DNA of 64,000 nucleotides from Williamsia soli (GTDB lineage: Bacteria; Actinomycetota; Actinomycetes; Mycobacteriales; Mycobacteriaceae), in assembly GCF_017377795.1 (NCBI RefSeq), contig NZ_JAFRDR010000006.1, positions 62,001 to 126,000 on the forward strand, written 5' to 3'. The number at the start of each line of letters is the position of its first letter. Position 1 is the first letter of the stretch. A program made the position numbers and the translations under genes. Below are positions 4,051-63,217 of this stretch, piece by piece. The notes under the pieces are model-generated. The model made no database searches, was not told where the DNA came from, and saw only the letters and a program-made list of their open reading frames with translations.

Positions 4051-4659
4051 TCAAAGTTGAGGCAATACCAGCCGCACCGCGTGGTCGACGACGGCGTCGA
4101 GATCGTCTCCGAGGTTGCCGTTCAGCCATTCCTGCGCGAGTTCGGCCATCGCCCCGGTGTACATCGAGGCACCAACCCGTGCGGCGACCGGATCGGAGGT
4201 CGGTTGGACGTGTCCGCTCTCGGTCAGGACGACGTCGCGCAGCAGGTCCTGGGTGAGCGCGCGACGCGCGGTCAGCACGGGGTTGGCGCGGGCATCGGTG
4301 AAGAGGATGCGTCCACGTCTCGGGTCGATGGAGCTGAACCCCAGTACGGCCTTGATGCCTGCGTGGGTGCGCGCGCGAACGGAAGGGCCGGCTGCGGTGA
4401 TCGCCCGCTCGACATCGGTCGCGAGATCGAGTGCAACCCGGTCGTAGACGGCTCCCAGTAGCTCGCCGGTGTCGGTGAAACTCTCGTAGAAGTAGCGGGT
4501 GTTGAGCTCGCACTCGCGGCACACCGACCGAACGGACAACGCGGCTTCGCCACCGGATCCGAAGAGCGCGAACGCCGCATCGACGAGTAATGCGCGTCGT
4601 TCTGTGCGGCGGTCGTGCAACGGGACGCCGGCCCATCGGGTGGGGGAGGACATCACCAC
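4051..4659 (-). CDS. TetR family transcriptional regulator
   Basis: 202 residues. The N-terminal HTH (about 18-65) includes RALLVDAAFALFGSGGEAALSVRSV and the recognition helix region CELNTRYFYESFTD. The ligand domain is all-helical with no obvious motif. It is divergent from the MpaB-like gene across 104 bases with a repeat-rich operator region (4693-4729), so it most likely represses itself and that gene. The HTH resembles that of the regulator at 8798-9481 (LNxRYFYESF in both), suggesting paralogy. Confidence 0.88.
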   Translation of the reverse strand: MVMSSPTRWAGVPLHDRRTERRALLVDAAFALFGSGGEAALSVRSVCRECELNTRYFYESFTDTGELLGAVYDRVALDLATDVERAITAAGPSVRARTHAGIKAVLGFSSIDPRRGRILFTDARANPVLTARRALTQDLLRDVVLTESGHVQPTSDPVAARVGASMYTGAMAELAQEWLNGNLGDDLDAVVDHAVRLVLPQL

Positions 4660-5788: not shown

Positions 5789-7219
5789 TCAGTTTCGCGT
5801 CAGTCGCATGGGCAATCCGTCTGCGGGTGTCGGGCCGGTTCCCCACGTCATCAGCGGGGTGTACGACTCCGGGACGGTCCAGGCGAAGTCGAGGAGCATC
5901 CTGTGCAGGATCGCCTTCACCGTGAGTCCGGCGAAGTGCATTCCGATGCACTTGTGCGCACCGGCGCCGAAGGGTGACCAGGCGTACCTCTCGAGCTTCT
6001 TGAGGGTGGCCGGATCGTCGAATCGGCTGGGGTCGAACACATCCGGCCGGTCCCACCAAGTGTCTATTCGCATCGACGTGTGGATGCTCAGCGCGATCTC
6101 GGTGCCGCGCGGGATGAAGTGGCCGGCGATACTGGTGTCCGCGGTGGCCTGCCGGAACAGCGTGCCTGCGGGTGCGTACATCCTGATCGACTCCTTGAAG
6201 ACGCCGTCGAGAAGATGCGCCGAGTTGAGTTCCTCGATGGTCGGGTCGTGGGGAAGTCGGCGCGCTTCGTCGCGTAGGTGTTGCTGCAGCTCAGGGTCTT
6301 TGCCGAGATGGTACAGCATCATCGACAAGGCGATGGTGCTCGTGTCGTGCGCTGCCATCAGCAGGAAGATCATGTGATTGGTGATGTCATCATCGCTGAA
6401 CGTGTGTCCCTCCTCCGTCTCGGAGTGGCACAGCACGGTGAAGAGATCATCGCCGGCTCCTGCGCGCCGCTCGGGGATCGCACCACGGAAGTAGCGTTGC
6501 AGTTCGCGTCGTCCTCGGAGGCCGCGGGACCAGCGTCCAGCCGGAAAGGGCTGCCGCACAATGGCTTGTGCGCCGCCCACCGCGTCGTCGAAAGCACGCG
6601 TGAGGAATCGGGCGGTGGCCCCGTCCGCGGGTTCTCCGACGAACACCTGACTCGCCATTGCGAGCAGCAGGCTCTTGACCTGGCCGTAGACCGGGATTCG
6701 ATCTCCCGGCGCCCACGTTGCCAGGGTGCTGTTCACAAGGGGTCGCGTCATGTCGAGATAGCCGACGAGTCGTGCACGGGTGAACGCCTGCTGCATGATT
6801 CGACGATGAAGGAGGTGTTCGTCGAAGTCGAGCAGCATGAGTCCGCGGTGGAAGAAGGGACCGATGACAGGCTTCCAGCCGGCCTCGCTCGAGAAGACCT
6901 TCTCCCTGTCGAGCCACACTTCGTGCAGCGCGTCGGGGCTGACCACCGTGACGACCCGAAACCCCACTGCACCTGTCCAGAACACCGGCCCGAATCGTCG
7001 ATACCGATTGCGTCCGAACTCGAGTGGTTCGGCGATGCTTTCGAGCGCGTGTCCCAGACCGGGCATGCCGTAGCTGCCCATCACCGGCTTGAGGCCGCTG
7101 CCGGCGGGAGGCGTCGCCAGCGGTTGTGCCGCGGCCGGATACATCGACGTCACCCGCGCACCGGTGCGCTGAACGGCGTGAGCGACCGAGGCTCGCGAGA
7201 GCAGATCTGCAGTCTTCAT
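5789..7219 (-). CDS. Cytochrome P450
   Basis: 476 residues. I-helix motif LMAAHDTS near residues 287-294, ExxR in the K helix (KESIRMYAPAG), and heme loop FGAGAHKCIG with the thiolate Cys424. The long N-terminus and K-helix context resemble CYP51/CYP136-like or class E types acting on sterols or lipids rather than the short CYP105/107 group. The ATG overlaps the stop of the SDR gene upstream (ATGA), so the 228-residue protein, SDR and P450 form one operon. Redox partners are not encoded nearby. Confidence 0.93.
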   Translation of the reverse strand: MKTADLLSRASVAHAVQRTGARVTSMYPAAAQPLATPPAGSGLKPVMGSYGMPGLGHALESIAEPLEFGRNRYRRFGPVFWTGAVGFRVVTVVSPDALHEVWLDREKVFSSEAGWKPVIGPFFHRGLMLLDFDEHLLHRRIMQQAFTRARLVGYLDMTRPLVNSTLATWAPGDRIPVYGQVKSLLLAMASQVFVGEPADGATARFLTRAFDDAVGGAQAIVRQPFPAGRWSRGLRGRRELQRYFRGAIPERRAGAGDDLFTVLCHSETEEGHTFSDDDITNHMIFLLMAAHDTSTIALSMMLYHLGKDPELQQHLRDEARRLPHDPTIEELNSAHLLDGVFKESIRMYAPAGTLFRQATADTSIAGHFIPRGTEIALSIHTSMRIDTWWDRPDVFDPSRFDDPATLKKLERYAWSPFGAGAHKCIGMHFAGLTVKAILHRMLLDFAWTVPESYTPLMTWGTGPTPADGLPMRLTRN

Positions 7220-8797: not shown

Positions 8798-9481
8798 GTG
8801 AATGCGAAACTTGCGAGCGTGACTGGTGGCGGTGAGCGCAACTATGCGGGCACAAGTGCAGCGGCTCGCGTCGAGAAGAGGCGCGCGAGTTTGCTGGACG
8901 CTGCCCTCACCGAGATGGCGCAGAGTCGCTGGCGTTCGGCGACTGTCGCGAGCGTGTGCACCGAGGCGCGGTTGAACAAGCGCTACTTCTACGAGAGTTT
9001 CGACGATCTCGATCAGCTCGCCGACGCGGTCATCGACATGGTCGCCGGCGAAGTGGTTGTTGCCGCCGTCGGTGGCTTCATCGCGACCGCGGAGTCTCCG
9101 CTGGACGAGCAGGCGCGCACGGTGGTCGCCGCAGTGGTCGACGTACTCGGCGAGGACCGACGCAAAGCGTTGGTGCTGCTGGGCGGCGTATCCACTGCGA
9201 CGAGTCAGGACGACAAGCGGAGAGCGGCGATCTCAGGGCTGACAACGGTGCTGGTCGATCATGCGCGGAAGATTCATGACGTTGCGCTCGAGCGGGATTC
9301 GCTCGCCGCAACCGGTCCGGCGTTCGTCATCGGTGGAACAGCCCAAACGATCTTGTCGTGGGTCAACGGAGACCTGTCGATCAGTCGTGAGCAGTTGATT
9401 GAAGACATTGCTGCCCTGTGGCTGACGCTGGGGGAGGCTGCGTCCGGGATCGCCCGATCGCGAATCGAGCTGGAAGAATAA
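8798..9481 (+). CDS. TetR family transcriptional regulator
   Basis: 227 residues. HTH at about 25-70 (RRASLLDAALTEMAQSRWRSAT, then LNKRYFYESFDDLDQLADAV). Helical ligand domain with no recognised signature. Divergent from the P450 operon with nested operators between them. Its last 101 bases overlap the 3' end of the convergent serine hydrolase gene. The exact start is uncertain because no strong ribosome site is visible. Confidence 0.88.
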   Translation: MNAKLASVTGGGERNYAGTSAAARVEKRRASLLDAALTEMAQSRWRSATVASVCTEARLNKRYFYESFDDLDQLADAVIDMVAGEVVVAAVGGFIATAESPLDEQARTVVAAVVDVLGEDRRKALVLLGGVSTATSQDDKRRAAISGLTTVLVDHARKIHDVALERDSLAATGPAFVIGGTAQTILSWVNGDLSISREQLIEDIAALWLTLGEAASGIARSRIELEE

Positions 9482-15670: not shown

Positions 15671-16423
15671 GTGCTGAGTGCGCAACGGCGTGAAGTGCTT
15701 TTGGAAAAGTTGCGAGACGAGGGTCGGATCGTGGCTCGCGAGAGCGCGGCGCAATTGGGCGTTACCGAGGACATGATCAGACGCGACCTGCGTGAGTTGG
15801 CCGCTGCCGGACTGTTGCAGCGCGTCTACGGTGGTGCGCTGCCGGCATCACCGGCCGTCGTCGACGTGGCCGCCCGGACAGCGGTCGCGCCGGATGGCAA
15901 ACGCCGTGTCGCGGCGGCCGCTGCGACACGCATTACCGAGGGATCGGTGGCCGTCATCGATGGGGGGACGACGGCCCTGGCGGTGGTGGCCGCGTTACCC
16001 CGCGATCTTCGCGCGACGGTGGTCACGCACAGCCCGGCGGTGGCTGTGGCGTTGATCGAGCACCGGGCGGTCACGGTGGAACTCATAGGCGGGCGGCTCT
16101 ATCGACACTCGATGGTCGCCTGCGGGTCTGTTGCTCTCGACAGTATTCGGGAGGTTCGCGCAGACATGTTCTTCATGGGCGTCACAGGAGTGCACGCCGA
16201 GGCGGGATTGACCACTGGCGACCGGGAGGAAGCTGCGATGAAGCGAGCATTCGCCGCACACGCAGGCGACACTTACGTCCTGGCCAGCTCCGAGAAAATC
16301 GGCGCCGCGTCGCCGTTCGAGGTGATTCCCCTCGGCGAGGTCAGCGCGGTTATCACCGACGCCGAGACCGGGCCCGCCCTCGATGCACTCGCCGACATCG
16401 ACGTTCCGATTGTCCGAGCGTGA
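15671..16423 (+). CDS. DeoR/GlpR family transcriptional regulator
   Basis: 250 residues from GTG with AAGGAGG just upstream. N-terminal HTH (about 3-56: AQRREVLLEKLRDEGRIVAR, then SAAQLGVTEDMIRRDLREL). The sugar-isomerase-like sensor domain has the family blocks VIDGGTTALAVV, VVTHSPAVAVAL, FFMGVTGVHAEAGLTT and LASSEKIG. DeoR members sense sugar phosphates. Divergent from the racemase/GNAT/deoxyribosyltransferase operon, its likely target. Confidence 0.93.
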   Translation: MLSAQRREVLLEKLRDEGRIVARESAAQLGVTEDMIRRDLRELAAAGLLQRVYGGALPASPAVVDVAARTAVAPDGKRRVAAAAATRITEGSVAVIDGGTTALAVVAALPRDLRATVVTHSPAVAVALIEHRAVTVELIGGRLYRHSMVACGSVALDSIREVRADMFFMGVTGVHAEAGLTTGDREEAAMKRAFAAHAGDTYVLASSEKIGAASPFEVIPLGEVSAVITDAETGPALDALADIDVPIVRA

Positions 16424-17453: not shown

Positions 17454-17753
17454 CAGATCCCGACCTCCAAGTCTGTCTGGGACATCTCGTGTTCGACGTC
17501 CCTGCCGGTAACGCTATTCGCGACTCTGATGTCGGCGCTTCTCGATTCCTGATCGATGCGAGCGGCAGAGCAGCCGAGGTGCAGTGCATGCACGGCAGAG
17601 CTTACGAAAAACTGCGTTGCACATTAAAGTTCGTGCATTCAATGATCGGTGTCGAGGCGATCTTCGCCGGCCCTTGCGAGTTGCGACCGTTGTCACACGG
17701 TGACGTATCGCGGAGAGGCGGCTTACCACTGATTGATCCGACAACGAACATTT
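17454..17753. other. Intergenic region upstream of catabolic block
   Basis: No gene recognised. The right end holds the promoter and palindrome described at 17751-17784. Confidence 0.45.
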
Positions 17754-17784
17754 CATTGACCGATAGTCAACGAATGTGTACTCT
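17751..17784 (+). promoter_or_regulatory. Promoter with TTGAC-N5-GTCAA palindrome (left boundary of catabolic block)
   Basis: TTGAC-cgata-GTCAA (17756-17770) is the core of imperfect 10-base arms (17751-17775). The -35 box TTGACC (17756-17761) lies inside it and TACTCT (17779-17784) follows after 17 bases. The same layout occurs at 25342-25375 on the other strand. A repressor bound here would cover the -35 box. Confidence 0.75.
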
Positions 17785-17863
17785 GAGAGGGCATCGAAAT
17801 CGTGCGCGCGGGGGCGGCGCAAAGTTGTCGACCCAATTCGCGTCTACCTGGTAGGAGTTGACC

Positions 17864-18502
17864 TTGGCTACTCTTCCTGCCCACCGTGGTGTGAAAGCCG
17901 GTCGCGTCGCCCCGGCCGTGATCGCGCATTGGGTGGTGAAATCCACAAGGCGTAGTGAGCTAATTGACTGGTATGGACGGGTTTTCGGTGCGCGCGTGGT
18001 TCACGACGACGGGCAGGTGACCTTCTTGACCTGGGATGGCGAGTCGCACAGACTCGCTGTTGTCTCGGTTCCGACCGTGTTCAGGTACCTGTTCCCGCTA
18101 GCCAAACTGCGACGCAAGATGCTCGGCCTGGACCATATTGCATTCACCGTCCCTACTCTGGAGGGTCTGCTGGAGGACTACGTCCGGCTCAGAAAGCAAG
18201 GGATTCGCCCTGTTTGGGCGATCAATCACGGGCCCACGATCTCGTTGTACTACGAAGATCCCGACGGCACGCGTCTGGAGTTCCAGGTCGAGAACTTTCC
18301 GACGCCGGAGGAGACGGCCGAGTTCTTCGCCGGCGATGAGTTCGCCGAGAACCCGATCGGCGTCAACATCGATCCTGATTATTTGCTCAGTCAGCTCCGG
18401 AATGGTGCCACACAAGAGCTTCTGCGGCGCCGCGAGGCGGGGGTGCGTCCTGGGCGCAAGATCGTTGCGAACAAGAAGACGCTGAATTTCAAGACACTGT
18501 GA
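17864..18502 (+). CDS. VOC-family protein, probable single-domain extradiol dioxygenase
   Basis: 212 residues from a TTG with GGAG six bases upstream. Two beta-alpha-beta3 modules: 19-70 and 88-145. A plausible 2-His-1-Glu metal triad is His22 (AVIAHWVV), His91 (GLDHIAF) and Glu139 (TRLEFQVE), as in type I extradiol dioxygenases, but the protein is shorter than the usual 290-residue two-domain enzymes. The EDPDGTRLEF end motif is characteristic. First gene after the palindrome promoter, followed by an FAH hydrolase, which suggests ring cleavage then hydrolysis (inference). A non-dioxygenase VOC role is possible. Confidence 0.85.
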   Translation: MATLPAHRGVKAGRVAPAVIAHWVVKSTRRSELIDWYGRVFGARVVHDDGQVTFLTWDGESHRLAVVSVPTVFRYLFPLAKLRRKMLGLDHIAFTVPTLEGLLEDYVRLRKQGIRPVWAINHGPTISLYYEDPDGTRLEFQVENFPTPEETAEFFAGDEFAENPIGVNIDPDYLLSQLRNGATQELLRRREAGVRPGRKIVANKKTLNFKTL

Positions 18503-18531
18503 GGACTGTAGTAGATGGAGGCCGAAGTCCG

Positions 18532-19458
18532 TTGAGCATAAGCGTGATACGCACTACAGAAGCTTGGTGGCGGGTTGAGGGCGGCGTCGCGACCCAGGTG
18601 AACACAGCTGCAATCACGACTGCCGACTTACTTGCCGATCGCCCGGCATTAGACGCAGCGGTGGGCGGTGATACTCCGGTCGGCACGTTGGCGGCGTTGT
18701 CTCCGGTCACCACGCCGTGTCGTGTCGTCGCTCAGTTGCTGAACTATCGGTCGCATGCGGTCGACGCCCGCGCCGACGTGGACAGCCTGCAGCCGACATT
18801 CTTTCGAAAGTCGTCTGCGTCGATCAGCGGTCCCACCGATCCTATCCGGACCCCGCCCGAAGTCGGATTGCTCGACTACGAGATCGAATTGGGGCTGGTC
18901 ATCGGTGCGCACATTCCGATCAACCAGGTGGTGACCCCTGAGTTGTTGAGCGACTTCGTGGCCGGAATTGTCGTGACCAATGATGTATCCGCTCGAGAGA
19001 TTCAGTTGACGAAGGTGCAGGTGTACGAGAGCAAGTCGTACCCGACATTCACCCCTGTCGGTCCACGACTGGTGCTGCTCGAACCGGGTGAGTTCGCACG
19101 GATCCCCGAACTGCGAATGACACTATCGGTCAACGGCGAGGTGCGACAGGACCAGGTCATCGGCGACGACCTTCTCACCCCGCCGGCGGCGGCGCTGACC
19201 CGGTTAGCGCGTTTTCAGACGTTGGCGCCCGGCGACCTACTGCTCACGGGAACGCCGGTAGGGACGGCCATCTCGGCACCTCCGGCACTGGTACAGAAGC
19301 TGGGTGAACTGCTGCCCGCGGCGTTGAAATGGAAACTGTTCTTCTCCCGCCAGGCACGCAATCCGAAGTACCTGTCGACAGATGATGTGGTCACCGCTCG
19401 CATCGCGACCGCGGACAGCGCTCTAGACCTCGGAACGCAGAACAATGTCATCTGGTGA
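18532..19458 (+). CDS. Fumarylacetoacetate hydrolase family protein
   Basis: 308 residues from TTG at 18532, placed by GGAGG at 18517-18521; a GTG at 18499 would overlap the upstream stop but lacks a ribosome site. FAH C-terminal domain with the metal-binding acidic residues in LLDYEIELGLVIG and VVTNDVSAREIQ, then KSYPTFTPVGPRLV and the LLTGTPVG loop. Such enzymes hydrolyse or decarboxylate acylpyruvate-like ring-cleavage products. It sits 29 bases after the VOC gene in the same unit. Confidence 0.9.
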   Translation: MSISVIRTTEAWWRVEGGVATQVNTAAITTADLLADRPALDAAVGGDTPVGTLAALSPVTTPCRVVAQLLNYRSHAVDARADVDSLQPTFFRKSSASISGPTDPIRTPPEVGLLDYEIELGLVIGAHIPINQVVTPELLSDFVAGIVVTNDVSAREIQLTKVQVYESKSYPTFTPVGPRLVLLEPGEFARIPELRMTLSVNGEVRQDQVIGDDLLTPPAAALTRLARFQTLAPGDLLLTGTPVGTAISAPPALVQKLGELLPAALKWKLFFSRQARNPKYLSTDDVVTARIATADSALDLGTQNNVIW

Positions 19459-19534
19459 CTTTCGGTTCCGGCACACGGGCGAGACTGAGACCTATTCCGG
19501 GCGTTGTACTCCCTCAACGAATTAGGAGATAGTT

Positions 19535-20341
19535 GTGAATGTCCGTACTGCCTTGGTGACGGGGGCGTCCTCAGGTATCGGTCAGGCCACCGCTGAACGG
19601 TTGGTTGCCGAAGGTTTTCGGGTGTACGGCACCAGCCGGAACCCCGCTGCCATCCCTGCCGGCGCACGTGTCGACGGCGTGCGTTACGTTCCTCTCGAGT
19701 TGGGGAGCGCCGAAAGTGCGGAGCAGTGCATCGCAGAGGTGGGTGCGGTGGACGTACTGATCAACAACGCAGGTGAAAGCCAGAACGGTCCGCTCGAAGA
19801 CCTACCGATGGACGCGATCGAGCGCGTATTCACCACCAATGTGGTTGCGCCAGTGCTTCTGACACAACTCGTACTGCCCGGGATGCGACAACGCGGATAC
19901 GGGCGAGTGGTGATGGTCGGGTCGATGCTGGCCAGCTTTCCGCTGGCGTACCGGTCGTCGTATGTGGCTTCCAAGGCAGCGCTGAAAGCTTTCTCGACGG
20001 CAGCGAGGGGTGAGGTCGCCCCGTTCGGCATCAGACTCGTGACAGTGGAGCCTGGCTCGATCAACACGGGTATCAGCGAGCGGCGCACCAAGTACATCGC
20101 CGACAACTCGGTGTACGGACCAGATTTCCAGCAGGTGCTGGATGCTCTGGATCAGAACGAGAAGCGGGGGATCTCGGCCGAACGAGTGGCGCATACGATT
20201 GTTTCGGTAGTCCTACATCGACGCCCGCGATCGTTCTACGCAGTCGGAAGCCACGCGCCGTTGGTATTTGCGGCCCGTAGAACATTGACCGAGGGTGGCA
20301 TCAACAGGCTCAGTAATCTGTCGCACGGTCTTCGCCGCTGA
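19535..20341 (+). CDS. Short-chain dehydrogenase/reductase (SDR)
   Basis: 268 residues from GTG with AGGAG eight bases upstream. Classical SDR motifs: TGASSGIGQ at 9-17, NNAGES, Ser of MVGSMLA, YVASK pair. The basic residues after strand 2 (GTSRNP) favour NADP(H). Resembles 17-beta-HSD-like and retinol-dehydrogenase-like SDRs. Third gene of the left arm of the catabolic block. Confidence 0.92.
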   Translation: MNVRTALVTGASSGIGQATAERLVAEGFRVYGTSRNPAAIPAGARVDGVRYVPLELGSAESAEQCIAEVGAVDVLINNAGESQNGPLEDLPMDAIERVFTTNVVAPVLLTQLVLPGMRQRGYGRVVMVGSMLASFPLAYRSSYVASKAALKAFSTAARGEVAPFGIRLVTVEPGSINTGISERRTKYIADNSVYGPDFQQVLDALDQNEKRGISAERVAHTIVSVVLHRRPRSFYAVGSHAPLVFAARRTLTEGGINRLSNLSHGLRR

Positions 20342-20419
20342 TCCGACACTTCTCAGCCGAATCGGTGCGCCGTGCTGAAACGACCGGCCATGAGTAACAG
20401 CCGGCCCTACGCTGTGGGG

Positions 20420-21178
20420 ATGGACGTTGTGCCAAGGCTCCTGGTGGGAGCGACTGTTGCTGTTGCACGGCGATACCATCGGATGCGGATTCGTCTGCCC
20501 CGCGAGATGCCGACCGGGCCGGTGCTGTTCGTGGCCAACCACGGGTTCGGCGGAGTATTTGATCTGAACGTGTTGGCGTTCGCCGCGGCGTATGACCGGC
20601 TCGGTGATCGTCGTCGAGTTACGATCCTGACCCATGCCATTGCCTGGAAGCTGGGTGTCGGCAGGCTGGTCAACATGTTCGACGGGATACCGGCCGACCA
20701 CGACGCGGCATTGCGCGCGCTGGACTCGGGCGACCACGTCCTCGTATTCCCTGGGGGCGACATCGACGGGTTCAAATCATGGAGGGACCGCAACAAGATC
20801 ATGTTTGGGGGCCGGGCCGGCTTCGCGCGGCTGGCGATCGACGCCGGCGTACCCGTTGTCCCGGTGGTCACCGCCGGCGCGGGGGAGTCATTGTTCGTCC
20901 TCAGTAGCGGACGAAGCGTTGCACAGCGATTTGGTCTCGACAAGGCGTTGCGGCTGAAGACTTTCCCTGTCTCGGTCTCGTTGCCCTGGGGCCTCAATGT
21001 CGGGTTGGTTGGATTGCTGCCGTATCTGCCGTTGCCGACGAAGATCACGACAGCCGTGCTCCCTGCGATGCGTGCTGAGGATGGGGAGACTGCCGAAGTC
21101 TTCAGCCACCGTGTTCATGCCGTGATGGATCGTGAGCTCACCGCGATGACGGCCGACCGGATCCCGTTGATCGGATAG
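20420..21178 (+). CDS. Lysophospholipid/glycerol acyltransferase-like protein
   Basis: 252 residues. The start chosen is the ATG six bases after a TACGCT -10 box (20408-20413), i.e. leaderless; in-frame starts at 20372 and 20390 have no ribosome site. Acyltransferase block I is FVANHGFGGVFDLN (His and Asp, spaced wider than the common HX4D). PlsC block III is FPGGDIDGFKSW. The central PVVPVVTAGAGES also fits the family. Likely acylates a lipid alcohol at the membrane. It may be a separate unit lying inside the catabolic block. Confidence 0.8.
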   Translation: MDVVPRLLVGATVAVARRYHRMRIRLPREMPTGPVLFVANHGFGGVFDLNVLAFAAAYDRLGDRRRVTILTHAIAWKLGVGRLVNMFDGIPADHDAALRALDSGDHVLVFPGGDIDGFKSWRDRNKIMFGGRAGFARLAIDAGVPVVPVVTAGAGESLFVLSSGRSVAQRFGLDKALRLKTFPVSVSLPWGLNVGLVGLLPYLPLPTKITTAVLPAMRAEDGETAEVFSHRVHAVMDRELTAMTADRIPLIG

Positions 21179-21258
21179 CGAATGGCCGCCATTCGTCGAC
21201 GTTCCCGTTCCCCACACTGATCAACAAGCGTGTCGGCCGCCTACGTCCGAAGGGGGTT

Positions 21259-21906
21259 CTACTTCAACGACGCCAGTGCAGCCGCGGTATCCGCGTCGGG
21301 ATCGAGCACGCTCGCCGACGACAGACACCCGACTATGAGCGATTCCATCCAATCCACCACCTGCGTGAGATCGAAATCGTCGGGATTGTTGAGCCACTGG
21401 ATGCTCGCTTCATCAATTGCTCCGACCGTCACACGCCCAACGAATCGCAGCGCACGGTTGTTCTGATCGAGGCCGAGCAGCATCGCAAGACCGCCGAGCA
21501 CATCCCAACGAGCGGCCTCATAGATCTCCCACGCCTGAGGGTCTGCGCCGCGACCGCCCAGCACCAACCGGAGAGCCAGGCCACGGTGGTCCCGTAAATA
21601 GGTGAGGTGCTGTTCGAGGGCCGACCGCAGCAGTGCTCCCGCCGAGGCCCCGGTCACACCGGCAAAAGCGGCGTTCATCTGCTCGGCAGAGGCCCGTACA
21701 GCCTCGAGGTACATGCCGCGCTTGCTCTTGAAGTAGTGGAAGAGCAGTCCATGCGCAACCCCTGCCCGCTCGGCAATGTCTGCGACCGTCACCTGGTCGT
21801 AGTCCTTTTCAGCGAACACCTCGACGGCGATCGAGATCAGGCGCCGCTTGGTCTCCGCTTTCTGGGCCGCGCGCTTACCGGGTTTGACAGCTGAAGGCCG
21901 GGACAC
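21259..21906 (-). CDS. TetR family regulator within catabolic block
   Basis: 215 residues from the second of two tandem GTGs, placed by GGAGG six bases upstream. HTH around 19-66: AETKRRLISIAVEVFAEKDY, then ADIAERAGVAHGLLFHYFKSKRGMYLEAV. Ligand domain of TetR_C type. It sits at the meeting point of the two convergent gene sets, 190 bases after the P450. It is the only regulator in the block and so the best candidate to bind the palindromes at 17756 and 25351. Confidence 0.9.
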   Translation of the reverse strand: MSRPSAVKPGKRAAQKAETKRRLISIAVEVFAEKDYDQVTVADIAERAGVAHGLLFHYFKSKRGMYLEAVRASAEQMNAAFAGVTGASAGALLRSALEQHLTYLRDHRGLALRLVLGGRGADPQAWEIYEAARWDVLGGLAMLLGLDQNNRALRFVGRVTVGAIDEASIQWLNNPDDFDLTQVVDWMESLIVGCLSSASVLDPDADTAAALASLK

Positions 21907-22099
21907 CACATACCTCCGTCAGTTTTCCGTAAGAGCCAGCGTCGTCGCCTGAGTGTGGCTGTCACGGCCGCGTCTTGGCTCACCATCGTCGCGCACGTCC
22001 TCCGACACAAACGATCCTAACGGGACAGCGGGCGGCTACCGCGGCGTCCTCGGATGGGCGCACCAAAGGCACCCGGTCGATCGACGATGCACGACTCGA

Positions 22100-23407
22100 T
22101 CAAACTGGTGTTGGACGTGTCTCCGGCCCCAGATTCACCGGAAGTGTCGACCAGCCGTGCAGAACTCGGGTGTCACGTCGCACTGCGTCACCCGCTGAGG
22201 TGAGGTGGGGGAATCGGTCGAACAGGGTCTTCAGACCTACTTCTGTCTCCGCTTTGGCCAGCGAGGCACCAAGACAGTAGTGGCGGCCACCTGAGAACGA
22301 CAGGTGTTTGGTTGCGTTTTCGCGGGTGACGTCAAAGCGATACGGATCGTCAAACACCTCGGGGTCGCGGTTGGCGCCGGCGAGAATGAGCACGACATGA
22401 TCGCCCTGACGCAAAGATCGGCCTTCAAGCGCCACATCATGCTTGGCCCTGCGGGCGGTCAGCTGTACCGGCGATTCCAGACGAAGCATCTCCTCGACCG
22501 CGTTCGGCCAGCGTGCAGGGTCTCGCCGGAGGATGTCGAGCTGGTCGGGGTTGTCGAGTAGGAGGCGAATGCCGTTTCCGAGAAGGTTGACAGTGGTCTC
22601 GAATCCGGCCGCCAGAACCAGCCCCGCGGTGGCGCGAAGTTCGTCGTCGGTCAGCCCGACGCCGTCGTCGGTGGCCATGATCAGCTCGCTCATCAGATCG
22701 TCGCCCGGGTGGCGACGCAGATCGTCCAGGTGGGCGGCCAACCATGCGTCAAAACGCTCCAGGCCGTCCTCGACACGCAGGAATTGATTCCACGACAATC
22801 CGATGTCGAGGCTGGGAGCTGCCTGTTCCCCGAACTCCAGCACGCGCTGGCGTTCAGCGTCGGGGACGCCCAGAATGGTGCTGATCACCGCGACCGGTAG
22901 CTGCGCGCAGTACCTGCTGATGATGTCGATGTCGTCGGCGTGGGAACCGATGTCGTCCAAGAGGCGCTCTGCCTTGACTTGCACCATATCGCGCATCTTG
23001 ACAACGGCACGGGGGGTGAACACCGAAGAGACCAATTTACGGTACCGGGTGTGCTCAGGTGGTTCGACTGCCAGCAGCGACGGGGGCTTGAGCGGGTGAA
23101 GCGCCGTCGAGCGGGTCCTTCTCTCGGCCCATCGCAGAGGCCCCGGCAGGTTGGCACCGAGTTCGGTCACCCGAAAGTCATCTGATCGCAGCAGATCGTG
23201 CGCCACGCGATGAGATACCGAGATGTGATTGATCCGCGTCTTGACCAACGGCCCTGACGCTCTGATTCTTTCGAAAACCGGCCGTGGATTCGCTCGGGCG
23301 GCTGGATCGGCGAGCAGCATCGCCTGCAGATCGCCGGCGTGAGCCGCCCTGGTCAACATATAGCGCACAACGCCGTGCGCGGCGATCCACCTGAGATGAG
23401 TCTTCAT
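22100..23407 (-). CDS. Cytochrome P450
   Basis: 435 residues. I-helix AAGFETT, K-helix ExxR in VEEMLRLESPVQ, heme loop FSGGRHYCLGA with Cys378, and an AGANRDPEVFDDP region typical of bacterial CYP families of the 105/107/125/142 type. It follows the SRPBCC gene by 60 bases in the right arm of the catabolic block. Probably hydroxylates the pathway substrate; ferredoxin and reductase must come from elsewhere. Confidence 0.93.
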   Translation of the reverse strand: MKTHLRWIAAHGVVRYMLTRAAHAGDLQAMLLADPAARANPRPVFERIRASGPLVKTRINHISVSHRVAHDLLRSDDFRVTELGANLPGPLRWAERRTRSTALHPLKPPSLLAVEPPEHTRYRKLVSSVFTPRAVVKMRDMVQVKAERLLDDIGSHADDIDIISRYCAQLPVAVISTILGVPDAERQRVLEFGEQAAPSLDIGLSWNQFLRVEDGLERFDAWLAAHLDDLRRHPGDDLMSELIMATDDGVGLTDDELRATAGLVLAAGFETTVNLLGNGIRLLLDNPDQLDILRRDPARWPNAVEEMLRLESPVQLTARRAKHDVALEGRSLRQGDHVVLILAGANRDPEVFDDPYRFDVTRENATKHLSFSGGRHYCLGASLAKAETEVGLKTLFDRFPHLTSAGDAVRRDTRVLHGWSTLPVNLGPETRPTPV

Positions 23408-23467
23408 GGCTGGGCCCCTCTCGCCGGCCCGGCGGGCATTCGGGCCCGCGAGACCGTTAGTAGTGTG

Positions 23468-23902
23468 TTATTCGACCAGTACGCTGAGCGTGTCCAGCGA
23501 CTTGTCGAGCTGTTTGCCGAACGCCTTCTGAATGATCTTTCCCAGAGGACCGAACAGGATCGAGCTATCGAAAATGACGTGTAGCGTTGCGACGCAGTCA
23601 TTGTCACCGTCGGGATCGACAGTGAAATCGAGTTGCACGGTCGATCCCGTGCTCCCGGACCCTTCCAGTTGCACATAACGCGGTGCGTCGTAGGCGGAGG
23701 TGGTGAAGTCGATGGTGTCCACGACGCCTTTGATGGTGACCACTTCGATGATTCGGGTACCGACGGTCAGTTCTGTGGGCGGCTCGGCGCCCCACCGGGT
23801 GTGCAGAGCGTTCCATTCTTCGAAACGGGAGGGGTCAGAGATCACCGCCCAAGCCTTTTCCTGGCTGGTGTGAAGTTTTCTGGTGGTGGTGATCTCGGGC
23901 AT
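23468..23902 (-). CDS. SRPBCC (START-like) family protein
   Basis: 144 residues starting MPEITTTRKLHTSQEKAWAVI with AGGAA eight bases upstream; longer frames overlap the upstream gene antisense to nothing useful. Helix-grip features: initial strand, AWAVISDPSRFEEWN helix, and a long C-terminal helix KAFGKQLDKSLDTL. Such proteins bind hydrophobic ligands. Between the monooxygenase and P450 genes it may carry or shield an intermediate (inference). Confidence 0.88.
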   Translation of the reverse strand: MPEITTTRKLHTSQEKAWAVISDPSRFEEWNALHTRWGAEPPTELTVGTRIIEVVTIKGVVDTIDFTTSAYDAPRYVQLEGSGSTGSTVQLDFTVDPDGDNDCVATLHVIFDSSILFGPLGKIIQKAFGKQLDKSLDTLSVLVE

Positions 23903-23976
23903 CGCTGTTCCTGAATGTCTGTGGCTGACGGATGATGACGTGTTCGTTGGCGGGGAGATCCGCGCACGACGGCCTG

Positions 23977-25173
23977 TCAGATGATGGCGGTGATGTGGTC
24001 GCGTTGGCCGAGCAGTGCCTTGCCGTAGGTTTCCATCGAGACCTGCGGCAGCATGACCGCATGTCGTGCACCGACGTTCGAATCGCGCCAAACGCGCTGC
24101 ATGGCGTTGACTTCGGCGAAACTCCCGGCTCCATACGCATCGAGGAGTGTGTTGATGGCGCTGGTGATGTTGCGCAACGCGACTGCGGAATCCGCACGCA
24201 TCCTGGCCCTGGCGGCAAAATCGGGATAGACGTTCTGTTCTGCGTAGCGCTGTACGTCAGCGGTCGCCCGATAGGCATGAAGGTGGGCAGTGTCGATCTT
24301 CGTGGCGGCATCAGCGATGAGCAGTTGAAAGGCCACCGACTCTGCTTGACGCTCGATGTTGGTGTAGGCCAATGTCTTGGTGGCCGCCTTGGTCACCGCG
24401 AGATCGAGCGCAGCACGACCCAGGCCCAGCTGAGGCCCGACCAACACGAGTACCAGCATGGGGCCAAAGGCAGACCGGTAGAACGCGGAGTCGGGATGGT
24501 CTGCCATGTACGTACCCGACATCACCGGGAGCATGGAGATCAATCGATGCTCGGGCACGAACACGTCTTCGGCGACAATGGTGTTACTACCCGAGGCGCG
24601 CATGCCGGCCACATGCCAGGTGTCTTCGACCTGAACATCGGTGCGGGGGAGGAGGATCATTGCCTGGTCTTCTTCGTCGCCGTCGTCATCGAGCACCCAC
24701 ACTCCACCGCCCATCCACTCGGCGTGCAAGCTCGCTGACGCGTACGGCCACTGGCCGGTGACGCGGTAGCCGCCGTCGACCTTTCGAGCCTCACCGCCCG
24801 GTGAGACCACACCGCACAGGATCTTGTCTGGTCCGTCAGCATAGATCTCGTCCACCGTCTGGCGGGGATACATACAGGTCGACCACGACTGGATGTTCGA
24901 TAAGGTTGTGACCCATGATGTTCCGCCATCGGCTTCCGCGATCAGCGCTGACAGTTCGAGCATGGATGTGAGTCCGGCTTCGAGTCCGCCGTGACGTCGC
25001 GGAGCGGCCAGCCGGAACGCGCCGGCATCTCGGAGCGCTTCGATGACCACCGGATCTACTCGTCGTTCCCGCTCATTGGCCGCCGAATGTTGCTTGATCA
25101 GCGGCAGTAGTTCTCTGACGTTGGCCAGCACGTTGTCGGCAGAATCGATCTGAGGTGATTGTGTTGTGATCAT
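23977..25173 (-). CDS. Acyl-CoA-dehydrogenase-fold flavin monooxygenase (group D type)
   Basis: 398 residues from ATG with GGGAGGA nine bases upstream. N-terminal acyl-CoA dehydrogenase domain with EADGGTSWVTTLSNIQSW, the middle strand domain (GYRVTGQWPYASASLHAEW and DTWHVAGMRASGSNTIV), and a helical C-terminal domain (LGRAALDLAVTKA; RAYGAGSF-like end). The G-GMRASGS segment and missing catalytic Glu pattern fit the HsaA/HpaH-like two-component phenol hydroxylases or dibenzothiophene DszC relatives, not beta-oxidation. A reductase partner is not present nearby. First gene of the right arm. Confidence 0.87.
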   Translation of the reverse strand: MITTQSPQIDSADNVLANVRELLPLIKQHSAANERERRVDPVVIEALRDAGAFRLAAPRRHGGLEAGLTSMLELSALIAEADGGTSWVTTLSNIQSWSTCMYPRQTVDEIYADGPDKILCGVVSPGGEARKVDGGYRVTGQWPYASASLHAEWMGGGVWVLDDDGDEEDQAMILLPRTDVQVEDTWHVAGMRASGSNTIVAEDVFVPEHRLISMLPVMSGTYMADHPDSAFYRSAFGPMLVLVLVGPQLGLGRAALDLAVTKAATKTLAYTNIERQAESVAFQLLIADAATKIDTAHLHAYRATADVQRYAEQNVYPDFAARARMRADSAVALRNITSAINTLLDAYGAGSFAEVNAMQRVWRDSNVGARHAVMLPQVSMETYGKALLGQRDHITAII

Positions 25174-25341
25174 GAGATGGTCCTCCCGTAGTTCGCGCAT
25201 TCGGTTGTAAGAGCGGCGTTCTGCTGACCCGGCCAGCGTGTGTCAACGCGATTGGCGCAGCACCAGCGACGCGCATTCCCGTTCGGGACAGGTGGCCGAT
25301 TCTGCGGGTGAGACGGAGTTGGCGGTGAGGTCCATGGCACG

Positions 25342-25375
25342 ACGGTACAATTTCGTTGACTATAAGTCAACGAAA
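25342..25375 (-). promoter_or_regulatory. Promoter with perfect palindrome (right boundary of catabolic block)
   Basis: TTTCGTTGAC and GTCAACGAAA flank TATAA (25351-25375), ten perfect base pairs per arm. On the minus strand TTGACT (25370-25365) is a -35 box and TACCGT (25347-25342) follows after 17 bases. Transcription would run into the monooxygenase gene with a leader of about 155 bases. Same core and same -35 overlap as at 17751-17784. Confidence 0.78.
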
Positions 25376-25473: not shown

Positions 25474-26454
25474 CTATCCGCGCGTCGAATCTTCTGCAGT
25501 AGCGGCTGCGCTGCGTCTGGAAAACCCCTCCAACTTCGTTGGATTCATCACCCAATGCAGGTGCGTGATACCGGAAGGCGTGGCCGTGGCGGCGAGCAGG
25601 GTGTAGCGCACGCCGTCTCGGGACAGCAGAATGGCAGGCGCTCCGTTCGCCTGCACCCAGGTGATCTGCGCGCCCGTCCAGAAATGTGAGGAGAAAGCTG
25701 CGACGAACTTCGCCACTCGCTCGTCGCCCATGATCGGAATACGCGCGGCGAGAACGTCTTTTACTCCGCCGCCATCGGAGTTGCTGACGACGTCGGCGGT
25801 GAGCAATGCGGTGAGGGCCTCGAGGTCGCCCGTCTGCGCGGCATCGACGAACGCAGTGAGTAGTCGCCGATGGTCTGAGGTGCTCACCGGCGCGCTGCTC
25901 TCGGCCGCGATGTGTTTGCGTGCTCGGGTGACGAGCTGACGTGCGTTCGCTTCCGTCACTTCGATGATCTCGCCGATCTGGCGGTACGGATAGTCGAAGG
26001 ATTCCCGCAGGACATACGCGGCCCGCTCGGTCGGTGAGAGCTTCTCGAGCAGCAGCAGAACCGCGAACCCGAGGGCTTCGCCTCGTACGGCTCCCAGAGC
26101 TGGGTCTGCGCTGGTGTCGACGGGTTCGGGCAGCCACGGCCCGATGTAGGTTTCATGCCTGGCCCGGGCCGACTGTCCTGCGTTGATCGCCAACCGGGTC
26201 GTGGTGGTGGAGAGGAACGCTGCGGTGTTCTCGACTGTGGATCTGTCGTACGCCTGCCACCGCAGCCATACGTCCTGCACAATGTCTTCGGCTTCAGAGG
26301 CGCTGCCCAACATCCGATACGCGATCCCGAACAACCTGGGTCGTACGAGGTTGAACTCGTCGGCGGCGTGGTCGAGTTCGGAACGGGGATTAGGAGGAAT
26401 CGCGATCAGCCCGCCTGTACGCCAGCGCCGACTGGCCGTTGACCCACTCCACAC
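25474..26454 (-). CDS. sigJ: ECF41-type sigma factor with SnoaL-like C-terminal domain
   Basis: 326 residues if started at the GTG at 26454, the last canonical in-frame start before the conserved region. Sigma2 (FGIAYRMLGSASEAEDIVQDVWLRW), linker motif WLPEP, sigma4 (LSPTERAAYVLRESFDYPY, then IGEIIEVTEANARQLVTRA), and a SnoaL-like extension with DGGGV and a terminal NPTKL. These three motifs are the ECF41 hallmarks (WLPEP, DGGGR, NPDKV types), and the extension takes the place of an anti-sigma factor. Mycobacterial SigJ belongs here. Probably co-transcribed with the NmrA-like gene upstream. Confidence 0.9.
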   Translation of the reverse strand: MWSGSTASRRWRTGGLIAIPPNPRSELDHAADEFNLVRPRLFGIAYRMLGSASEAEDIVQDVWLRWQAYDRSTVENTAAFLSTTTTRLAINAGQSARARHETYIGPWLPEPVDTSADPALGAVRGEALGFAVLLLLEKLSPTERAAYVLRESFDYPYRQIGEIIEVTEANARQLVTRARKHIAAESSAPVSTSDHRRLLTAFVDAAQTGDLEALTALLTADVVSNSDGGGVKDVLAARIPIMGDERVAKFVAAFSSHFWTGAQITWVQANGAPAILLSRDGVRYTLLAATATPSGITHLHWVMNPTKLEGFSRRSAAATAEDSTRG

Positions 26455-33408: not shown

Positions 33409-33440
33409 AAGAGCACTGAGTCGGGGGGTTGGGAACGATC

Positions 33441-33974: not shown

Positions 33975-34382
33975 CTAGGTTGTGGCGTGCGCTTCGTATG
34001 GCGCCCAGGGCGTTTCGCGGAGTGCGGGACAGTGTTCCGGGGTGGGGTGGTGCGCGATGTGGATCATCTGGTCGAGGGCGTCGCGTGCGGCGGCCAGATC
34101 CGCCATGGCGGTGGTGATCCGGTCGCGTTCTGCTGTCAGGATGCCGAAAGCCTCGGGGGAGGCCTGCCCGGTGTCGACGCAGGGAAGCAGCTGCAGGACG
34201 GTTCGGCTCGACAGCCCCGCGGTGAAGAACTGCTGAATCAGTTTCACGCGCTCGATGGCCGATTCGGGGTAGGTCCGCTGGCCGCTGAGGGTGCGTTCGG
34301 AATGAAGCAGCCCCTGCTCTTCGTAGTAGCGCAGGGCGCGGGTGCTGACCCCCGCGCGGAGTGCGACGTCGCCTATTCGCAA
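33975..34382 (-). CDS. MerR family transcriptional regulator
   Basis: 135 residues from TTG placed by AGGAGG eight bases upstream; a GTG nine bases earlier overlaps that ribosome site. MerR HTH: MRIGDVALRAGVSTRALRYYEEQGLL, then the second helix pair to about 70 and a dimerisation coiled coil. No Cys pattern for metals apart from one late HCP, so probably a small-molecule or redox sensor. Divergent from an SDR gene over an 18-base dyad. Confidence 0.9.
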   Translation of the reverse strand: MRIGDVALRAGVSTRALRYYEEQGLLHSERTLSGQRTYPESAIERVKLIQQFFTAGLSSRTVLQLLPCVDTGQASPEAFGILTAERDRITTAMADLAAARDALDQMIHIAHHPTPEHCPALRETPWAPYEAHATT

Positions 34383-43250: not shown

Positions 43251-43772
43251 TCAACCCGCTTGTCGGCGGTCGATGGCGGCGGAAAGGGTGTCGGCCAGAG
43301 CAGGGTCTGCGGCGGAGACGACACGGCGAGCGGCCGCGCCGAGGTGTTCGAGTTGGTCGGCCTCCAGGGCGTCGATGACAAGTCGCCGGACCTCGCGGAC
43401 GTGTGAGGGCGCAATACGTTGTAGCTCATGCCATCCCGCTTCGGTCAGTATCGCCTCTGTGCGACGGCCTGCGCCGCCGCAGGAGCGCCGCTCGACCCAC
43501 CCCGCACTTTCCAGTCGCGACACCGCGTGCGACAACCGCGACAGTGATCCTCGTGCCAGCCCGGCAAGGTCGCTCATCCCCTGTACGTGATCGGGGGCGT
43601 CAGACAGCGATACCAGGATGCTGTACTCAAAGAAATTGATTCCGGCCTCGTGTTTGAGCTGTGCGTCGAGTTTGCCGGGCAGGGTCATGATCAGCGCGAC
43701 CAGTGATGCCCAATCGCGTTGCTGATCGTGGGAAAGCCACGCTTCGCCCGTCTCGTCCTGGTGGTCGGTCAC
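43251..43772 (-). CDS. MarR family transcriptional regulator
   Basis: 173 residues. MarR winged HTH: FFEYSILVSLSDAPDHVQGMSDLAGLARGSLSRLSHAVSRLESAGWVERRSC, wing GGAGRRTEAILTEAG. Closely resembles the MarR at 33441 (same DQ--W---I-L---LPGKL N-terminus). Faces the azoreductase gene across two operators. Confidence 0.92.
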   Translation of the reverse strand: MTDHQDETGEAWLSHDQQRDWASLVALIMTLPGKLDAQLKHEAGINFFEYSILVSLSDAPDHVQGMSDLAGLARGSLSRLSHAVSRLESAGWVERRSCGGAGRRTEAILTEAGWHELQRIAPSHVREVRRLVIDALEADQLEHLGAAARRVVSAADPALADTLSAAIDRRQAG

Positions 43773-62452: not shown

Positions 62453-63217
62453 ATGGCTGATCTGGACAACCCAAGCGTGGTGGCGCGTGTCGGTTCCCTG
62501 CTGCGAGCCGTCGGTGCCGCCGAACCCGCCGGTGCATCGACCACAAACTTGGCCAAGGCCGCCGGTATCGCTCGTCCGACCGCCCATCGTCTGCTGACCT
62601 CGCTGTCGGGTGAAGGCCTGATCGATCGGGACATGAAGACCGGACGCTGGGCGCTCGGACCGGAGTTGTACCTGCTCGGCGCGAGCGCCGCGAATCGCTA
62701 CGACATCACCGGCCAGGCCCGCGACATCCTCGACGGTCTCGCACGTGACACCGGAGAAAGCGCGTTCCTTTCCGCACGCCGCGGCGACGAAACCGTTTGT
62801 GTGCTGAGTCAAGAAGGTAGCTTCCCGCTGCGTTCGCACGTCCTGCACGAGGGCATCCGTTTTCCGCTGGGGGTCGCTTCCGCAGGCTTGGTGATCCTCG
62901 CCCATCTGCCCGCTCGGGACGTTGACGGCTTCTTCTCGCGGACCGCACTCGAAAGCACCTGGGGTGAGATGCATTCGGAGTCATCGATCCGGCGGCGGAT
63001 AGCGGCGACGCTGCAGAGTGGATACGCCGTCAACCCGGGGCTGCTCGTCGAGGGAAGTTACGGTATCGGGTCGGCCGTGTTCGACCGATCAGGCCGTCCG
63101 GCCTGGGCGCTGAGCCTGACCGGGGTGCAGACGCGGTTCCGGCCGGAGCGGCTACCGACGTTGGGTGCAACGCTTTTGGATGCGGCACACCTGTTGTCGA
63201 CGCGGCTTCGGCTCTAG
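62453..63217 (+). CDS. IclR family transcriptional regulator
   Basis: 254 residues. HTH around 8-65: ARVGSLLRAVGAAEPAGASTTNLAKAAGIARPTAHRLLTSLSGEGLI. IclR effector domain with FLSARRGDETVCVLSQEG, FPLGVASAGLVILAHL and YAVNPGLLVEGSYGIGSAVFD. Divergent from scoAB-thiolase; expected effector is the oxoacid or a precursor. Confidence 0.94.
   Translation: MADLDNPSVVARVGSLLRAVGAAEPAGASTTNLAKAAGIARPTAHRLLTSLSGEGLIDRDMKTGRWALGPELYLLGASAANRYDITGQARDILDGLARDTGESAFLSARRGDETVCVLSQEGSFPLRSHVLHEGIRFPLGVASAGLVILAHLPARDVDGFFSRTALESTWGEMHSESSIRRRIAATLQSGYAVNPGLLVEGSYGIGSAVFDRSGRPAWALSLTGVQTRFRPERLPTLGATLLDAAHLLSTRLRL

Follow-up and report, generated by a model that had tools for sequence, protein, structure and literature searches.

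Several catabolic regulons of mycobacteria and rhodococci are repressed by regulators of the TetR family, such as KstR, KstR2 and BkaR, which act as dimers on palindromic operators in the promoters of a nearby catabolic cluster. The ring-opening module of cholesterol degradation (HsaA/HsaB-HsaC-HsaD) combines a group D flavin monooxygenase, extradiol cleavage and a hydrolase. The present study concerns a block of genes in Williamsia soli that recalls both systems. It occupies positions 17751-25375 of a stretch of 64,000 nucleotides, referred to here as the window, which corresponds to contig C22:62001-126000 of a 6.07-Mb genome in 25 contigs. The block is bounded by two palindromes, named operator 1 and operator 2, and contains a tetR gene where its two arms meet (Table 1). 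Judged by sequence comparison, this local TetR very probably represses both operons by occluding both promoters, which would make the block one regulon.

Like the regulons of KstR, KstR2 and BkaR, the block appears to rely on a TetR-family dimer, on palindromic operators at nearby catabolic promoters and, probably, on release by a pathway compound. Its regulator scores far below the NCBIfam equivalog cut-off for KstR (28 bits against 280), and it likewise stays below the cut-offs for MftR (57 against 225), FadR (53 against 200) and FasR (41 against 330); its operator sequence, we presume, differs from the KstR and KstR2 motifs. The predicted order of step types, with monooxygenase, extradiol cleavage and hydrolase, is that of the Hsa module. 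Unlike that module, the block would use a small protein of the VOC superfamily for cleavage and a protein of the fumarylacetoacetate-hydrolase (FAH) fold for hydrolysis, and the reductase gene adjacent to the monooxygenase is a remnant. The aed estrogen-degradation cluster of Rhodococcus sp. B50, as far as the excerpted text of PMC12507874 describes it, is also actinobacterial and also combines a cytochrome P450 with a meta-cleavage dioxygenase, a likeness of description and not of sequence; unlike the aed cluster so described, the block has no enoyl-CoA hydratase or thiolase among its Pfam matches. An estrogen pathway was considered for the block and not adopted, since it rests on that description rather than on a sequence comparison. 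In the text portion of their survey, Balhana et al. (2015; PMC4482099) predict palindromic TetR operators by mycobacterial comparison and list 30 conserved divergent TetRs by M. tuberculosis gene number; TTGAC and GTCAA are absent from this text, and its logos are figures, in which a match is possible. A literature search with the operator motif strings gave no match among the papers covered. The type of system is familiar, and what is new is the specific pairing of TetR and operator and its spread.

The two operators share the core TTGAC-N5-GTCAA. The sequence-only reading had described near-identical palindromes at both ends of the block with promoters firing inward, and this description holds: in each promoter TTGAC within the palindrome serves as the -35 box, and a TANNNT -10 box lies exactly 17 bp away. 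Transcription is predicted to start near 17791 and near 25335. Operator 2 is the sole palindrome in the window with ten of ten paired arm positions around a 5-base loop. Aligned on the core, the two promoters are identical at 27 of 39 positions; the next-best alignments in the window reach 24 (operator 2 again, on the other strand) and 22 (an unrelated place at 5910). The extended palindrome had also been said to occur only at the two block ends, and a genome scan with the 25-mer, allowing up to three mismatches, indeed gave only these two sites (control, 0), so that the extended motif flanks the block and is not common at unrelated genes.

The association between operator and regulator was followed in both directions. 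From motif to regulator, 301 genomes including the own genome were searched, a set that we take to be the Mycobacteriaceae in GTDB. With up to two mismatches, the 25-mer has six sites in five genomes (own included), and all six lie less than 4 kb from the best match to the window TetR, at 60-100% identity; such matches at E 1e-30 are present in 33 of the 301 genomes. A second pattern, containing the core plus promoter (TTGACT-N3-AGTCAA with TANNNT at 17), yielded 23 sites in 20 genomes and none for the reversed control. A TetR helix-turn-helix is encoded inside the 3-kb locus at 14 of these sites, and the remaining nine have a match to the window TetR within 6.2 kb. The binomial probability of 14 in 23 is about 9e-11 if 110 TetR genes per 5.3 Mb are assumed as background; this and the Poisson figures are indicative only, as related loci were counted as independent and the TetR density is partly assumed. 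At 21 of the 23 sites the recognition helix of the TetR starts with V/T-A-H-G-L. A relative of the VOC, FAH, HsaA or P450 protein is encoded at 18 of these motif-first loci, so that gene ancestry and regulator are partly confounded; L181, L182, L183 and L185 show only a weak match to the short-chain dehydrogenase/reductase (SDR), and L167 has the TetR only.

From regulator to motif, 36 loci were examined, which account for all 39 matches to the window TetR apart from its own. They contain 49 exact cores, distributed over 29 loci, against 0.93 expected at the density of the own genome. Other spacer lengths from 0 to 12 gave 0 or 1 site each, and four control palindromes gave 0, 0, 0 and 2. When one-mismatch sites with a correctly spaced -10 box are added, 33 of the 36 loci have a site; L059, L064, L146 and L150 lack an exact core and carry an intergenic one-mismatch site with a -10 box at 17-18. 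Together with the two sites of the window, the exact cores form a set of 51 sites, 44 of which have TANNNT at a spacing of 16-18 in either direction; by identical scoring, random places have it in 0.6% of cases. The proposal of the sequence-only reading that the local TetR is the repressor thus gains support from comparison: the extended motif predicts the TetR in five of five genomes, including the own, and the TetR predicts the motif.

In the proposed mechanism, a dimer of this TetR would bind each operator, approximately TTCRTTGAC-N5-GTCAAYGAA. Since the -35 box forms the left half-site of each operator, which extends nearly as far as the -10 box, bound TetR would shut RNA polymerase out of both promoters. 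The regulon would consist of two converging operons, the left one encoding the VOC, FAH, SDR and acyltransferase proteins and the right one the HsaA-like monooxygenase, the SRPBCC protein, the P450 and perhaps the TetR itself. A substrate or intermediate of the pathway would enter the C-terminal pocket and release the TetR, so that both arms would be expressed jointly; repression and induction are suggested by the behaviour of the TetR family. A previously unassigned TetR and two promoters thereby become a specific regulon proposal, and the compact inducible promoter-operator could be a handy expression tool in actinobacteria.

A number of observations weigh against this interpretation. The short core is not distinctive by itself: with up to one mismatch it occurs three times in the window against 1.56 expected, which is not significant (18 of 100 shuffles reach three), and its eight exact sites in the genome compare with four for the reversed control, which is not clearly significant; just four of these eight have a -10 box at a spacing of 16-18. 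Three of the 301 genomes also contain a match to the reversed 25-mer control when two mismatches are allowed, so that the linkage to TetR and not the count carries that argument. In the window itself no operator lies upstream of tetR. Three of the 36 TetR loci (L148, L154 and L160) have no acceptable site, although for L148 one lies just beyond the stretch (L047:19047), and 7 of the 51 sites are without a -10 box. The P450 genes of L049 and L050 have no site upstream, nor does an acceptable one precede the FAH-VOC pair of G107 (L160). At two of the 23 core-plus-promoter sites (L168 and L173) the TetR helix is LAPRTAFHHF. In the HYF2 group of TetRs (16 sites), described below, the flanks show no YGA preference despite the same recognition helix, a count blurred by tandem sites. 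In addition, the loci were picked by TetR homology and are mutually related, so that the probabilities overstate their independence.

The bases flanking the core were compared between groups of TetRs, which we drew ourselves and named HYF, HHF and YYF after the end of the recognition helix; sites at HYF2 loci bearing the flanks of a second (YYF) TetR were left out of the counts, as were L168 and L173 from the YYF group. In the window-like group (19 sites, 38 half-sites), GTCAA is followed by Y in 36, G in 25, A in 27 and A in 26 half-sites. The YGA flank is also favoured in the HHF group (10 sites) and the HYF3 group (12 sites) and not in the YYF group (9 sites). Since the core is common to a wider TetR group, specificity probably resides in the flanking bases, a flank code offered as a hypothesis with HYF2 as its one clear exception.

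The flanks also bear on the possibility that both operators serve another regulator, for example the TetR with an AHG helix on contig C7 or a global regulator, while the local TetR controls something else or cross-reacts. The core does adjoin other TetR genes of the own genome (L164:8891, L165:8492 and L166:9877), and the helix of the C7 TetR (VAHGLVSYHF) is similar to that of the window TetR. However, the C7 site has different flanks (no YGAA), the flank of the window-like group is not seen in the group with the YYF helix, and the extended motif is found near the window TetR and its closest relatives only, which makes this explanation unlikely. It is very unlikely that the local TetR, instead of being purely a repressor, acts as an activator or in both ways: a few relatives of TetR are activators, and FasR, labelled an activator by NCBIfam, is among the fold matches, but the operator spans the -35 box and the spacer, a position suited to occlusion. 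It is extremely unlikely that the palindromes are mainly strong sigma-A-type promoters without a dedicated repressor, their symmetry being incidental or due to common ancestry of the catabolic genes. In its favour, one half-site holds a consensus-like -35 box, the sites are conserved along with the genes downstream, and the confounding at the 18 motif-first loci would suit it. Against it, both arms are conserved including the half-site without a -35 role, a spacer of 5 is all but exclusive, and in L057, L145 and L146 the site still adjoins tetR even though the divergent gene is a different one.

Beyond repression of this block by the local TetR, a broader generalisation can be formulated, to which we give slightly less than an even chance: the TetR subfamily with the V/T-A-H-G-L helix would use one rigid promoter-operator cassette, in which TTGACT-N3-AGTCAA doubles as the -35 box with the -10 box at 17-18 bp, for parallel ring-cleavage regulons in Mycobacteriaceae. 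Several such switches in a genome would be kept apart by group-specific core flanks (YGA in the window-like, HYF3 and HHF groups, others in YYF and HYF2) and, in four loci, by tandem operators. It was the HYF2 exception that lowered this estimate from an even chance. The motif is usable as an operator motif for the TetR group and flags scattered VOC, FAH and monooxygenase genes that may share pathways. The tandem exact cores lie 17 bp apart between the SRPBCC and HsaA genes (L052:7822/7839, L054:8360/8377, L056:8145/8162 and L062:7592/7609), a distance that suggests two dimers side by side. A second island of the own genome on C7 (L164:7977-13632) comprises a TetR gene, the exact core with a -10 box and genes for a SnoaL-like protein (assigned by eye), a VOC protein (32%) and an FAH protein (38%). 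One of the eight exact core matches of the genome (C18:20933-20947) falls within a tRNA-Pro gene, which is probably a coincidence.

The regulator itself carries a TetR_N helix-turn-helix (PF00440, 60.8 bits against a cut-off of 24), and its AlphaFold model (mean predicted local distance difference test score, pLDDT, 87) shows an all-helical TetR fold, including a C-terminal ligand domain, with Foldseek matches to TetR structures. By fold it comes closest to 2qib, a Streptomyces TetR that is uncharacterised; FadR ranks next and FasR further down, matches that are too weak for naming an inducer. Residues A52-H58 are invariant in 22 aligned homologues (of 40). Of 345 genomes chosen from across the class, four had members of the TetR group at E 1e-25, and these four belong to the family of the window. 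The gene had been placed at 21259-21906; the boundary at 21259 stands, while the frame reaches 21909 with a GTG start, 21906 corresponding to a second GTG one codon on. In a related genome (G131), tetR and about 115 upstream bases (window 21259-22024; L045:9670-10433) are inverted in place at 84% identity. The view that tetR expression depends in every case on a unit under operator control was abandoned, because tetR moves together with these upstream bases and because in L057, L059, L145 and L146, where the operator separates tetR from a divergent gene, the -10 box found faces the divergent gene and not tetR; tetR may have its own promoter. Neither a VOC homologue nor a close FAH homologue is near in these four loci; an HsaA-like gene is present in L059, and a short match to FAH (33%) in L145.

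As alternative regulators of the block, eight further regulators encoded in the window were tested by their relatives at E 1e-15 in 20 related loci (L045-L064) and rejected, none having relatives in more than two: TetR at 4054 (0), TetR-like at 8798 (no Pfam match, named by eye; 0), DeoR at 15671 (0), the SigJ-like sigma factor at 25477 (1), MarR-like at 33429 (2), MerR-like at 33975 (0), MarR-like at 43251 (2) and IclR-like at 62453 (0), the last four named by eye. The TetR at 21259 has relatives in all 20 by construction, as the loci were selected with it.

The seven closest loci (L045-L051) vary in gene order. A core, either exact or with one mismatch, lies upstream of HsaA or its reductase in all five loci having it (L045-L048 and L051) and upstream of the VOC/FAH pair in all five having that pair (L045, L046 and L049-L051); in L049-L051 a core precedes the SDR or P450 gene. 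In L051 the VOC/FAH and HsaA genes are divergent, each with its own site (7658 and 7793). Three genomes, that of W. muralis among them, have a flavin reductase gene as the first one past operator 2. The ATG of this gene is 6 bases past the -10 box in L046 and L047, and in L048 there is an in-frame GTG at 3 and, by eye, an ATG at 6; this distance is consistent with a leaderless start and lends support to the predicted promoter. The SDR and acyltransferase genes of W. muralis are separated by a transketolase-like gene and a gene for an Lrp/AsnC-type regulator (L046:5886-8958).

Table 1. Operators, promoters and genes of the block, in window coordinates.
Feature	Position	Strand	Basis and remarks
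Operator 1	17751-17775	+	Sequence TTTCATTGACCGATAGTCAACGAAT; imperfect palindrome TTTCATTGAC-N5-GTCAACGAAT, 8/10 arm pairs
Promoter 1	17756-17784	+	-35 TTGACC 17756-17761 inside operator 1, 17-base spacer, -10 TACTCT 17779-17784
VOC-superfamily protein, probable single-domain extradiol dioxygenase	17858-18502	+	PF00903, 35.1 bits; dioxygenase role predicted
FAH-fold protein, probable hydrolase/isomerase of ring-cleavage product	18499-19458	+	Pfam, NCBIfam, structural relatives; role predicted
SDR	19535-20341	+	Pfam
Acyltransferase	20372-21178	+	PF01553; weaker DAGAT match
TetR-family regulator, proposed repressor at both operators	21259-21909	-	GTG start; recognition helix region VAHGLLFHYF
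Cytochrome P450	22100-23407	-	Pfam
SRPBCC / polyketide-cyclase-like protein	23468-23902	-	Pfam, NCBIfam
HsaA-like group D flavin monooxygenase, oxygenase component	23977-25200	-	Pfam, NCBIfam, structural relatives; start perhaps 25173 by eye
Flavin reductase gene remnant	25243-25335	-	Whole gene in W. muralis (L046); ATG 6 bases past -10; remnant extent by eye
Promoter 2	25342-25370	-	-35 TTGACT 25370-25365 inside operator 2, 17-base spacer, -10 TACCGT 25347-25342
Operator 2	25351-25375	-	Palindrome TTTCGTTGAC-N5-GTCAACGAAA, both 10-base arms perfectly complementary

The gene content points to a probable aromatic ring-cleavage cluster, in which an aromatic ring would be hydroxylated and subjected to extradiol cleavage and C-C hydrolysis. 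The compound might be phenolic or terpenoid/steroid-like, its ring being opened by the VOC dioxygenase and the product hydrolysed by the FAH protein. The VOC translation, a match to the glyoxalase/dioxygenase superfamily, offers H, H and E as candidate iron-site residues by eye, and its gene perhaps starts at 17864, where a Shine-Dalgarno-like GGAG was noted by eye. The FAH protein shows similarity to diketo-deoxyrhamnonate hydrolase and hydroxyheptadienedioate isomerases. For the monooxygenase, XiaF is the best solved relative, and a putative hydroxylase (3afe) and the 3-HSA hydroxylase (2rfq) come next; with 256.7 bits against a cut-off of 450 it belongs to the superfamily of HsaA and falls short of the HsaA equivalog NF045629. 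W. muralis has a complete flavin reductase gene between operator 2 and the monooxygenase gene (L046:13896-14432), but the window and L045 retain just a short remnant of it. Since the adjoining gene is a remnant, the monooxygenase is presumably served by a reductase encoded elsewhere; the best other relative in the genome has 40% identity. The acyltransferase had no match in a PHROGs search. Relatives encoded on plasmids, both for the HsaA-like protein and for the TetR, all stay below 60% identity, and none of three plasmid loci has an exact core, two of them (L161 and L162) having a one-mismatch core with a correctly spaced -10 box. With 132.6 bits, the SRPBCC protein exceeds the cut-off of 100 bits that NCBIfam sets for "Rv0910 family toxin", a label that is probably misleading because its gene belongs to a probable catabolic operon, where the neighbouring gaps of about 60-75 bases leave no space for a separate small gene.

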